Position numbers and translations under genes: made by a program
Shown: piece by piece, positions 1,568-60,500 of the stretch
How positions within the stretch are numbered: the first letter of the stretch is position 1
How the letters are laid out: every line of letters starts with the position of its first letter
Notes under the pieces: generated by a model
What the model was told of the DNA's origin: nothing
Databases searched by the model: none
What the model saw: the letters and a program-made list of their open reading frames with translations, nothing else
Assembly: GCF_019090165.1 (NCBI RefSeq)
Contig: NZ_JAHRIB010000100.1
Location: 1 to 64,000, forward strand
Direction: 5' to 3'
From: Streptomyces sp. BV286
GTDB lineage: Bacteria; Actinomycetota; Actinomycetes; Streptomycetales; Streptomycetaceae
Length of the DNA: 64,000 bases

Positions 1568-1729
1568 CCTGCGCGCGGCCCCGGCGGAGCGCTTCGCGCC
1601 ATCGCGGTGTTACCGCGAGTCGCACCAGTTCACGGCTTGCCCTCCGGGCCGTTGAACACACGGCCGCCCCGGGACGTACCAGTGGGCCAAGGGGCCACTC
1701 CCCTTCCCAGCGTCCCACACGGAGGAACT

Positions 1730-3100
1730 GTGAGCACGATCGCCGGCGGCCGCGCGGCGCGGCGTCAGACGATGCGCCGCATTCGCCCTCGCCGCTCCCC
1801 CGCCATCCCGCTGCTGATCGCCGTATGGGCGGGCGCGGCCGGAGTGGTCTGGCTGTGGTGGAGCAACACCCCGGCCATCGCGGACGACAAGGGCCGGATC
1901 CTGAACGCGGGCCGCATCACGGGTCTGCTCGCCGGATACCTGATGGCCCTCGTCGTCCTGCAGATGGCCCGGGTGCCCGCGCTGGAACGCCGGGTCGGGT
2001 CGGACCGCGTCGCCCGCTGGCACGCCATGAGCGGCCGCTACACGCTCTGCCTCACCCTCGCCCACATCGGACTGACGATGTACGGCTACGCCCTCCAGGC
2101 CAACACGGGGTTCGTGCAGCAGACCGTCGACTCGGTGACCACCCTCCCCGACATGGGCAAGGCGGCCATCGGCACGGGTCTGCTGCTGTTCATCGGCCTG
2201 ATCTCCGTGGGCGGACTGCGCAAGCGGATCCCGTACGACACCTGGTACCACATCCACCTGCTCACGTACGCGGCCGTGTACCTGTCGTTCTGGCACCAGC
2301 TGTCCACCGGCAACGACTTCGCCGTCGAGCCGGCCGCGACCACGGCCTGGTACGCGCTGTACGGCACGGTGACCGCGCTGGTGGTGTGGTACCGGGTCAT
2401 CACCCCGATCCGCCTCAACCTGCGGCACCAGATGCGGGTCGAGGAGGTCGTCGAGGAGGCGCCCGGCATCGTCTCCGTGCTGATCAGCGGGAAGCGGCTG
2501 CACCGGATCGGTGCCGAGCCCGGGCAGTTCTTCCGCTGGCGGTTCATGGCGCCGGGCATGCGGCTCAGCTCGCACCCGTACTCGCTGTCGGCGGCGCCCC
2601 GGCCCGGTCTGCTCAGGATCACCGTCAAGGCGCTCGGCGACCACAGCACCGCGCTGAAGGGGCTGAAGCGGGGCACGCGGGTGTGGGCCGAGGGTCCGTA
2701 CGGGGCACTGACCGCGTCCCGGCGCAGCCGGGGCAAGGTGCTGCTGATGGCCGGCGGTGTGGGCATCACCCCGATGCGGGCGCTGTTCGAGACGCTGCCC
2801 GCGGAGCGCGGCGACCTCACCCTGCTGTACCGGGCCAACAGCACCCAGGACCTGGCGCTGTGGGACGAGTTGTCGGCCATCGCCGACGAGCGCGGTGCCC
2901 GGCTGATGTACGCGGTGAACAGCCCCGACGGGGAGCGCCCGGACATCAACCCCGAGACGCTGCGCCGCAAGCTGCCCGACATCGACGAGCACGACGTGTT
3001 CCTGTGCGGGCCGCCCGGCTTCGCCGAGGGCGCGTACACCGCACTGCGCGGCGCGGGCGTGCCGGCCCGCCGCATCCACCACGAGTCCTTCGAGCTGTGA
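1730..3100 (+). CDS. Membrane ferric-reductase-like flavocytochrome / FAD-NAD(P)H oxidoreductase
   Basis: 456 aa from a GTG at 1730 chosen for the GGAGGA 4 bp upstream; longer versions in this frame have no ribosome site. The first about 210 residues form membrane helices of the ferric reductase transmembrane family, with paired histidines (RWHAMSG, LAHIG, YHIH, FWHQL) suited to heme ligation. The C-terminal half is a ferredoxin-reductase module: FAD-binding HPYSLSAAP at 282-290 and NAD(P)-binding GGVGITPM near 340. It probably moves electrons from cytosolic NAD(P)H across the membrane to the FMN-carrying protein encoded next (19 bp downstream), which is modified by the third gene. The physiological acceptor outside the cell is not evident. 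Confidence 0.88.
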   Translation: MSTIAGGRAARRQTMRRIRPRRSPAIPLLIAVWAGAAGVVWLWWSNTPAIADDKGRILNAGRITGLLAGYLMALVVLQMARVPALERRVGSDRVARWHAMSGRYTLCLTLAHIGLTMYGYALQANTGFVQQTVDSVTTLPDMGKAAIGTGLLLFIGLISVGGLRKRIPYDTWYHIHLLTYAAVYLSFWHQLSTGNDFAVEPAATTAWYALYGTVTALVVWYRVITPIRLNLRHQMRVEEVVEEAPGIVSVLISGKRLHRIGAEPGQFFRWRFMAPGMRLSSHPYSLSAAPRPGLLRITVKALGDHSTALKGLKRGTRVWAEGPYGALTASRRSRGKVLLMAGGVGITPMRALFETLPAERGDLTLLYRANSTQDLALWDELSAIADERGARLMYAVNSPDGERPDINPETLRRKLPDIDEHDVFLCGPPGFAEGAYTALRGAGVPARRIHHESFEL

Positions 3101-3119: not shown

Positions 3120-3962
3120 ATGAAGAAGAGCCATCCCCTGCGACGAGTCGTGCTGGCCGGTGCCGCCACGGTGTCCGGGATCGTCCTGCTGCTGACGCTG
3201 AAGCCCTCGTCCGACCCGGCGGCCGCGTCCGCCGACGGCGCGCCACAGCAGCAGCAGTCGGTCGCCCCGCAAGGGTCCGGAGGGGTGCAGGCCGCGGGCG
3301 GCGCCCAGGTCCAGACCCTCACCGGTGACGTCGTCAAGACCGAGTACGGCAACGTCCAGGTCCGGGTCACCGTGGCCGGCGGCAAGGTCACCTCGGCGGC
3401 TGCCGTGCAGTCGCCCACCGGCGGGCGCAGCACCGAGATCAGCACCAATGCGGTGCCGAAGCTGAACCAGGCCGCGGTCGCGGTCGGCACCGCCGACATC
3501 GACGCCGTCTCCGGAGCCACCTACACCAGCGGCGGCTACAAGAAGTCCCTCCAGTCGGCCCTCGACCAGGCGGGCGCCGCGGCGCCCGGCGGCGGCTCGG
3601 CCGACGCGAGCGGTGCGAACGGCGGCAGCGGCTCGGAGGGCGGTTCGGCCGACGCGAGCGGATCGGGTGCGGGGGCGGGCGCCGCCCAGGCGCAGACCCT
3701 CACCGGTACGGCCGTCACGACCGACTACGGTCCCGTGCAGGTCCGGATCACCGTGACCGGCGGCAAGATCACCAAGGCCGAGGCGGTCCAGTCGCCCAGC
3801 GGCGGGCGCAGCAGCCAGATCAGCGGCGACGCGGTGCCGAAGCTCAACCAGGCCGCGGTCGCGGCCGGCACCGCCGACATCGACGCCGTCTCCGGAGCCA
3901 CCTACACCAGCGGCGGCTACAAGGAGTCCCTGCAGTCAGCCCTGGATCAGGCCGGTGGCTGA
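3120..3962 (+). CDS. Exported protein with two tandem FMN-binding (flavinylation) domains
   Basis: 280 aa. Signal or anchor segment at residues 8-27, then two FMN_bind domains (about 62-145 and 190-278) joined by a Gly/Ser/Ala-rich linker. Each domain ends with the flavin-attachment motif DAVSGATYTSGGY; by analogy with NqrC/RnfG-type proteins the Thr of SGAT (T134 and T261) would carry FMN through a phosphoester bond. The next gene encodes the ApbE enzyme that makes this bond. The two domains are nearly identical in protein and DNA, pointing to a recent internal duplication. Expected role: a two-flavin extracytoplasmic electron carrier for the upstream reductase. Confidence 0.9.
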   Translation: MKKSHPLRRVVLAGAATVSGIVLLLTLKPSSDPAAASADGAPQQQQSVAPQGSGGVQAAGGAQVQTLTGDVVKTEYGNVQVRVTVAGGKVTSAAAVQSPTGGRSTEISTNAVPKLNQAAVAVGTADIDAVSGATYTSGGYKKSLQSALDQAGAAAPGGGSADASGANGGSGSEGGSADASGSGAGAGAAQAQTLTGTAVTTDYGPVQVRITVTGGKITKAEAVQSPSGGRSSQISGDAVPKLNQAAVAAGTADIDAVSGATYTSGGYKESLQSALDQAGG

Positions 3963-4752
3963 CCCGGCCGAACCGGCCGAGGCACCCGCGGAGTTGCGTC
4001 ACGCGGAGGAGGTGATGGGCACGGTCTTCTCCTTCGACGTGCGGGGCGGTGAACCCGGGGCCGTGCGGGCCGCGCTGGATGAGGCCGTCGCCCAACTCCA
4101 CGTGGTGGACGAGGTGTTCAGCACCTACCGCGAGGACAGTCAGATCTCCCGGCTGGCGCGTGGCCTGCTGACCGTCGACGAGTGCGACCCGCAGGTCGCC
4201 GAGGTGCTCGAACTGTGCGCCGAGGCCGAGCGGTTGAGCGACGGCTGGTTCAGCACGAAGTACGCGGGCGTCATCGACCCGACCGGCATCGTGAAGGGCT
4301 GGTCCGTCGAGCGGGCGGCCCAGCGGATCTTCGCGGCCGGGGCGAGCGGCGTGAGCGTGAACGGCGGCGGCGACGTGCAGATGTACGGCGTGCCGGGACC
4401 GCACCGGCCCTGGCGGGTCGGCGTGTCGGACCCGTTGCGCCCGGGCGGTCTGGCCGCCGTGGTCACCGCGGCAGGTGTCGACCGGCTGGCCGTGGCCACG
4501 TCGGGCTCCGCGGAGCGCGGCACGCACATCGTGGATCCGGGCACGGGCCGCTCCGCGGTCACCGACCTGGTCGCGGTGACGGTCGTCGGCCCCCGTATCA
4601 CCTGGGCGGACGCCTGGGCGACGGCGGCCTTCGCGATGGGCTCCCGGCAGGCGCTCGCCTGGCTGGAGTCCCTGCCGGACATCGAGGCGCTGCTCATCAC
4701 GGCGGGCGACGAGGTCAGATGCACGGGAGGTCTGGCCGACCGGCTGGGCTGA
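3955..4752 (+). CDS. apbE: FAD:protein FMN transferase (ApbE family)
   Basis: 265 aa from a GTG inside the end of the preceding gene (8-bp overlap, so translation is coupled). Recognisable ApbE elements in order: MGTVFSFDV at the N-terminus, FSTYREDSQIS, DPTGIVKGW, the nucleotide-binding VNGGGDVQMYG and the C-terminal THIVDPGTG and TWADAWATAAFAMG metal-site region. ApbE transfers FMN from FAD to Thr in SGAT-type motifs; the preceding protein offers two. No lipobox or signal peptide is seen, so this version may act before export or be exported by another route. Family length is usually 280-350 aa, so this is a compact member. Confidence 0.9.
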   Translation: MADPAEPAEAPAELRHAEEVMGTVFSFDVRGGEPGAVRAALDEAVAQLHVVDEVFSTYREDSQISRLARGLLTVDECDPQVAEVLELCAEAERLSDGWFSTKYAGVIDPTGIVKGWSVERAAQRIFAAGASGVSVNGGGDVQMYGVPGPHRPWRVGVSDPLRPGGLAAVVTAAGVDRLAVATSGSAERGTHIVDPGTGRSAVTDLVAVTVVGPRITWADAWATAAFAMGSRQALAWLESLPDIEALLITAGDEVRCTGGLADRLG

Positions 4753-59617: not shown

Positions 59618-59636
59618 TTAGGTAAGCCTAAGCGAA
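59618..59636. promoter_or_regulatory. Candidate iron box (IdeR/DmdR site) upstream of the SIP gene
   Basis: TTAGGTAAGCCTAAGCGAA at 59618-59636. Its reverse complement matches the DtxR/IdeR consensus (TTAGGTTAGGCTAACCTAA) at 16 of 19 positions by hand. It lies 18 bp before the ATG of an iron-uptake gene. Confidence 0.75.
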
Positions 59637-59654
59637 CTTATGCAGGAGGCCGTC

Positions 59655-60500
59655 ATGGCAGAGCGTCCGGCACGCAGGGCCCCCAGGCCCCATTCCGCGC
59701 GGGTCGTCCGTACGGAGCGGCTGACCCCCCATATGCAGCGGGTGGTCGTCGGGGGCGAGGGTCTCGCCGATTTCACGACGGGCACCAGCACCGACCATTA
59801 CGTCAAGCTGCTGTTCGGCGCCGCGGGCGTGACGTATCCGGAGCCTTTCGACATGACCCGGATCCGCGAGGAGTTCCCGCGCGAGCAGTGGCCCGTGACG
59901 CGGACGTACACCGTGCGCGCCTGGGACCCGGAGCTGCGCGAGCTGACCCTGGACTTCGTGATCCACGGCGACGAGGGACTCGCGGGACCCTGGGCCACCC
60001 GCGTGCAGGCGGGCGAGCTCGTGCGGTTCCTCGGGCCGGGCGGGGCGTACGCCCCCGATGCCGAGGCCGACTGGCATCTGCTCGCCGGTGACGAGAGCGC
60101 GCTGCCCGCGATCGCGGCGACGCTGGAGGCGATGCCCGACGGTGCGCAGGTGCGTGTCTTCCTGGAGGTCTCGGGCCCCGAGGAGGAGCAGAAGTTCGAC
60201 TCGGACGTCGAGGTCGTCTGGCTGCATCGCGGTGACCGGCCGGTCGGCGCGGCGCTGGTGGAGGCCGTACGGGCGCTGGAGTTCCCGGCGGGCCGGGTGC
60301 ACGCGTTCGTGCACGGCGAGGCCGGGTTCGTGAAGGAGCTGCGCAGGCTGCTCCGCGTCGAGCGTCAGATTCCGCGCGAGGACCTCTCGATCTCCGGGTA
60401 CTGGCGGCTCGGGCACAACGAGGACGGGTGGCAGGCCGCGAAGCGGGACTGGAACGCGCAGGTCGAGGCGGAGCAGGAGGCTGCGCCGCCCGCCGCCTGA
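59655..60500 (+). CDS. Siderophore-interacting protein (flavin ferric-siderophore reductase)
   Basis: 281 aa from the ATG at 59655 with AGGAGG 6 nt upstream. SIP-family layout: flavin site RTYTVRAW, then the VFLEVSGPEEE and FVHGEAGFVKELRRLL NAD(P)-side segments and C-terminal YWRLGHNEDGWQAAKRDW. It reduces Fe(III)-siderophores to release iron inside the cell. The iron box implies repression when iron is plentiful. Confidence 0.92.
   Translation: MAERPARRAPRPHSARVVRTERLTPHMQRVVVGGEGLADFTTGTSTDHYVKLLFGAAGVTYPEPFDMTRIREEFPREQWPVTRTYTVRAWDPELRELTLDFVIHGDEGLAGPWATRVQAGELVRFLGPGGAYAPDAEADWHLLAGDESALPAIAATLEAMPDGAQVRVFLEVSGPEEEQKFDSDVEVVWLHRGDRPVGAALVEAVRALEFPAGRVHAFVHGEAGFVKELRRLLRVERQIPREDLSISGYWRLGHNEDGWQAAKRDWNAQVEAEQEAAPPAA

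Follow-up and report, generated by a model that had tools for sequence, protein, structure and literature searches.

How does a flavin transferase that lacks an export signal come to serve a protein that carries one? This question is raised by three consecutive genes in the window, a 64,000-nucleotide stretch (72% G+C) of a 9.42-Mb Streptomyces genome. On the forward strand they encode a ferric-reductase-like membrane protein, a protein with two FMN_bind domains and the flavin transferase ApbE, and this order, proposed in the initial annotation, was confirmed by Pfam and the coordinates. The first two genes are separated by 19 nt, and the second and third overlap by 8 nt. The features of the locus are the following:

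1651–1708, forward strand: conserved block, probable promoter (TTGAAC...TACCAG-like), from a phylogenetic footprint of five close relatives
1730–3100, forward strand: ferric-reductase-like membrane protein with FAD and NAD(P)H domains, 456 aa, GTG start (Pfam, invariant histidines, structure matches)
3120–3962, forward strand: FMN_bind protein with two domains, SaFMN3 ortholog by sequence, 280 aa, ATG start (ORF, Pfam, 8P2A match)
3141–3206, forward strand: twin arginine (residues 8–9) and N-terminal membrane helix (residues 10–29) of the FMN_bind protein (conservation, charge)
3348–3566, forward strand: FMN_bind domain 1, site T134, codon 3519–3521 (whole-genome profile scan, SGAT motif)
3582–3686, forward strand: Gly/Ser/Ala-rich flexible linker, residues 155–189 (AlphaFold2 pLDDT)
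3729–3947, forward strand: FMN_bind domain 2, site T261, codon 3900–3902 (whole-genome profile scan, SGAT motif)
3955–4752, forward strand: ApbE (FAD:protein FMN transferase), 265 aa, GTG start, no signal peptide (Pfam, solved relatives, signal test)

We read the operon as a transmembrane electron exporter with a two-flavin relay that is loaded with FMN by ApbE in the cytosol and then exported, and assign this reading a probability of roughly 70%. In this scheme cytosolic NAD(P)H is the electron source: the reductase would conduct its electrons by way of FAD and two bis-His hemes across the membrane, and at the outer face they would pass to the FMNs of the N-terminally anchored FMN_bind protein. 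ApbE would attach both FMNs, derived from FAD, in the cytosol; the loaded protein would then be exported, possibly by Tat in this gene type, and would act in the cell wall as a flexible, equipotential relay or store of two flavins that delivers electrons to an outside acceptor.

Dozens of Streptomyces genomes, and members of other actinomycete families, share the reductase-FMN_bind-ApbE order, which indicates that the operon arrangement is not due to chance. The three genes are a tight operon and, judged by gene content (a PF01794 protein, an FMN_bind gene and apbE together, with a NAD-binding domain), a MsrQ-like flavinylation cluster of Actinobacteria, a kind already known. The conserved block ahead of the operon is the probable promoter of the reductase gene. 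A perfect palindrome at 1603–1617, upstream of the reductase (CGCGGT-GTT-ACCGCG), was rejected as an operator because its left arm is not conserved; relatives keep the right half only (GGTTACCGCG). In most relatives the operon is situated within the arginine gene region, with argR and argD downstream. Upstream, at 276–1567, are genes for a member of the PNPOx-type flavin/F420-binding family and a YkuD L,D-transpeptidase, which recur in ∼35 relatives. In 22 sampled loci of type A, as orthologs of the window's gene type are termed here, an extra pair of a reductase and a single-domain FMN_bind protein directly precedes the operon (L014:2869-4723 and 21 more) and apparently shares its ApbE; no such pair is present in the window. 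The same genome also holds a second, diverged cluster of a reductase, a two-domain FMN_bind protein and ApbE (L009:5253-8219, contig C87 of G000). The ApbE of the second cluster shows 43% identity to that of the window and is likewise signal-less, and KR replaces RR in its substrate anchor.

The reductase matches Ferric_reduct, FAD_binding_8 and NAD_binding_1 in Pfam. Histidines 98, 112, 176 and 189 are invariant in 103 relatives and fall into two pairs 13–14 residues apart. Members of the ferric-reductase/NOX superfamily are expected to bind two bis-His hemes with such a spacing, and the reductase would accordingly carry two. Both membrane and soluble reductases of the superfamily are found among its matches to solved structures; the best, 8qt6/8qq7, bears the record title FAD-binding FR-type domain-containing protein, and we take it to be pneumococcal NOX. 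The charge around the helix of the FMN_bind protein, +4 before and 0 to −1 after it in the window's type, predicts that this protein is oriented N-in/C-out. Together, the invariant histidines and this charge pattern suggest a path from NAD(P)H via FAD and two hemes to FMN on the outside. We infer that the electrons flow from inside to outside and, from gene order, that the reductase and the FMN_bind protein are partners.

A PF04205 profile search, which the initial annotation had put forward as a check on the two domains, gave 68.5 bits for the product of 3120–3962 (cut-off, 22 bits) over two stretches, and in the whole-genome scan each domain was above the cut-off separately. The SGAT motifs occupy residues 131–134 and 258–261 of the 280-residue reading frame, so the threonines named earlier, T134 and T261, are the correct ones. 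With PF04205 found twice and an anchor that is N-in by charge, the protein has the make-up of a multi-flavinylated protein, a class marked by two or more FMN_bind domains on a single polypeptide outside the cytosol. Among solved structures the best match is 8P2A (E 6e-36), a crystal structure of the second domain of Streptomyces azureus SaFMN3 with FMN bound to the SGAT threonine (PMC10339131). Its identity to the window protein is 66/88 with domain 2 and 63/88 with domain 1, and reaches 86/88 with domain 2 of the three-domain type-A ortholog in L017; on sequence, the window gene is an ortholog of SaFMN3. Alignment with 8P2A indicates that the residues contacting FMN in SaFMN3 domain 2 (Tyr14, Ser42, Ile45, Thr72, Tyr73 and Thr74) are present in both window domains. 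SaFMN3 has been purified with three covalent FMNs and partly crystallised; upon co-expression with ApbE in E. coli, its mass was that of the fully flavinylated form (PMC10339131). Given the two FMN_bind matches and an ortholog flavinylated on all three domains, two covalent FMNs on the window protein, at the two likely FLAVINYLATED sites, are a well-founded expectation. In L021, L018 and L019, SGAT is changed to STAT or SSAT with the threonine kept, and both domains are altered in L021. The FMN_bind gene of L052:6339-7792 is broken, with domain 2 cut before SGAT and an in-frame read into ApbE, and may be a pseudogene, a natural fusion or an assembly error.

The initial annotation had gone further. 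Its statement that one exported polypeptide carries two covalent FMNs is supported by the two FMN_bind matches and the mass spectrometry of SaFMN3, but its proposal of an electron wire in place of a carrier with one flavin is not. In a wire, electrons would travel over long distances along a directed chain of the two FMNs, and the cluster survey does propose that multi-flavinylated proteins are similar to multi-heme cytochromes (PMC8238504). However, the two window domains are near-identical, with 79% protein identity (66/84 residues), and are joined by a flexible linker (pLDDT <50 across residues 155–186 of an AlphaFold2 model, which has a mean pLDDT of 58 and served for the domain and linker layout only). 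Titration of SaFMN3 yielded a single midpoint potential, −184 mV, and no directionality was inferred by the authors (PMC10339131). Nor are two domains a fixed design, since type-A reading frames contain one domain in 9 cases, two in 72, three in 53 and four in 2. A directed wire is thus very improbable, and we read the FMN_bind protein as a flexible chain whose similar flavins relay or store electrons. Between domains 1 and 2 of the window, 9/48 fourfold-degenerate sites differ; for domain 1 compared between close species, the values are 10/53 to 15/46. Such low divergence of the two domains fits a recent duplication or gene conversion.

The acceptor outside the cell had been called unexplained, and the surroundings of the operon agree, as no recurrent acceptor gene is found among its neighbours in relatives. 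If O2 were the physiological acceptor, the system would resemble an NADPH oxidase and the flavin protein would make extracellular hydrogen peroxide or superoxide. The best known-structure matches of the reductase would suit such a function, and O2 does reoxidise reduced SaFMN3, with a rate of 1.2 per second (PMC10339131). At the 130 μM O2 of that experiment, however, this rate is slow for a dedicated oxidase. Moreover, reactivity in vitro is weak evidence of a role, as O2 reacts with many flavins, whether free or bound, and we consider an oxidase unlikely. Alternatively, the flavins might serve iron uptake by reducing extracellular Fe(III). Such an assimilatory ferric reductase would be in keeping with the Ferric_reduct domain and with the VIT1 iron transporter gene reported for some MsrQ-like clusters (PMC8238504). 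Against it, the searched region upstream of the operon contains neither an iron box nor a Rex box, and control by either was rejected. The same window has a near-consensus iron box at 59618–59636 on the reverse strand (three mismatches, 0 expected by chance), directly preceding the gene of a siderophore-interacting protein (reductase; 59640–60500, forward strand), which provides an internal control for the search. The recurrent neighbours also include no iron transporter (cluster sequences read, profile scan on some only). A role in iron assimilation is accordingly rather improbable.

The remaining component, ApbE, bears on the opening question. It scores 149.6 bits against PF02424, its residues 107–264 align with solved ApbEs, and it has the sequence and conserved motifs of the family. 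The protein starts VADPAEPAEAPAELRHAEEVMGTVF, with the first ApbE motif directly after, and has no signal, lipobox or TM helix by which it would be exported or lipid-anchored; no upstream in-frame start adds a hydrophobic segment. Its membership in the family stands, since cytosolic ApbEs are known. The signal test was applied to every possible start in the open frame at 122 loci with a scored ApbE. Both genes adjoin at 97 actinomycete loci (82 from Streptomyces and 15 from other families, all within the class). None of these ApbEs (0/97) has a signal peptide, lipobox or membrane helix, and the substrate has a signal or anchor at 96 of the 97; in the lone exception, L121, the start may fall outside the scanned stretch. 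A further 20 ApbEs of the class, with no detected FMN_bind neighbour, likewise show no signal. The test is not blind, as it detected a signal in 3/5 ApbEs from outside the class. In the window's genome PF04205 occurs only in the window protein and in one second exported protein, and DUF2271 is absent; a cytosolic FMN_bind target for the signal-less ApbEs was thus not found there.

An ApbE with no export signal, FAD that is made in the cytosol and a substrate with a signal anchor suggest that FMN is probably attached in the cytosol while the substrate has yet to be exported, which departs from the usual account. Most ApbEs are described as secreted (PMC12052999), and those that act outside need FAD outside (PMC9973259); export of pre-loaded proteins by Tat has been named as a general alternative (PMC9973259). 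A literature search, with most subscription journals outside its reach, returned no account of a signal-less actinomycete ApbE with an exported substrate. Alternatively, ApbE might be secreted non-classically, or be carried out in a frameshift fusion with the FMN_bind protein, and act outside as in Listeria. The two genes share 8 nt in most type-A loci, at the FMN_bind stop and the ApbE start, and a +1 shift there would yield a fused protein. The overlap is not conserved, however (the C87 type has a 5-nt gap and L024 no overlap), and the fusion was rejected on these grounds; an ApbE outside would also require exported FAD. Export of ApbE by any of these means is highly unlikely. Loading in the cytosol is the preferred reading, and it would dispense with an FAD exporter, because FMN would be attached before export. 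A more general proposal is tentative, with the odds somewhat against it: actinomycetes may reverse the order of flavinylation, with a cytosolic ApbE loading FMN ahead of export and without an FAD exporter, in the Streptomyces type by Tat and with the signal retained as an anchor.

The route by which the loaded protein would cross the membrane may differ between gene types. Residues 8–9 are RR in 131/131 type-A loci. The window's RRVVL matches the usual Tat pattern RR.[FGAVML][LITMVF] and is followed by a moderately hydrophobic helix, the type-A N-terminal consensus is HP.RR.VLA..AATVSG.VLLL.LKP, and a TatC gene is present in the genome. Given the CGN codons, R-to-K at these positions mostly takes two base changes, so the invariance of RR is less telling than it seems; R/K swaps were dropped as proof of an arginine-specific constraint, being confounded by codon usage. 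Relatives with a signal-less ApbE have KR (C87 type), RH (L065) or no RR (L111 and L118), and KK is also seen. RR is therefore not kept in all of them, and Tat was rejected as a general rule. For the window's gene type only, we give Tat export about even odds. AxA, found in 116/131 type-A loci, is uninformative as a sign of a cleaved signal, since the region is Ala-rich. Conservation of the type-A protein is highest in the N-terminal helix: mean pairwise identity is 0.85 for the N-terminal 33 residues versus 0.62 for the flavin domain (the latter without gaps and somewhat low). The neighbouring secreted YkuD protein shows the opposite trend, with identities to the window of 0.40 for the signal and 0.76 for the mature part. 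Such strong conservation suggests that the helix is kept as an anchor and binds a partner; the reductase and TatC are plausible candidates.

The family to which the FMN_bind protein belongs has already been characterised, a point that the initial annotation lacked, as it did the missing export signal of ApbE. SaFMN3 resembles the window protein in the kind of domain, the SGAT sites, the predicted N-terminal anchor, the flexible linkers and the neighbouring flavin transferase gene; it differs in having three domains rather than two, and is known as an N-terminally truncated recombinant protein whereas the window protein is known from its sequence. As a two-flavin protein, the latter adds little beyond SaFMN3. 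In Meheust et al. (2021; PMC8238504), 1797 MsrQ-like clusters, broadly conserved in Actinobacteria, are reported, 1437 of them with a NAD-binding domain, as are 2081 proteins that contain multiple FMN-binding domains. By gene and domain content, the window operon belongs to both sets. Like the window operon, these clusters, which are mainly from Actinobacteria, combine a PF01794 protein and a NAD-binding domain with adjoining FMN_bind and apbE genes; the gene content is the same, but the missing ApbE signal is not discussed in the available text.

The extracellular electron transfer system of Listeria (PplA, FmnB and EetB/FmnA) shares with the window operon an exported protein flavinylated by an ApbE-family enzyme and acceptors on the outside, but FmnB acts outside and needs exported FAD (PMC9973259), whereas the window ApbE has no export signal. 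The window substrate also has no lipobox, unlike the lipoprotein PplA, and with a signal-less ApbE as well the locus is not of the Listeria type. The cytosolic ApbE of Klebsiella pneumoniae likewise has no signal peptide, but acts on a soluble fumarate reductase of the cytosol (PMC12052999), whereas the recognisable targets in the window's genome are exported only. The absence of a signal from ApbE throughout the actinomycete loci suggests that flavinylation precedes export and merits the attention of specialists. If true, this is a wider point than a two-flavin protein, and the place and time of FMN attachment, together with the choice of Tat or Sec for a loaded domain, become a clean question. 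Published accounts place ApbE outside the membrane, hence the need for an FAD exporter (PMC9973259); in actinomycetes the enzyme is apparently inside and its target outside.
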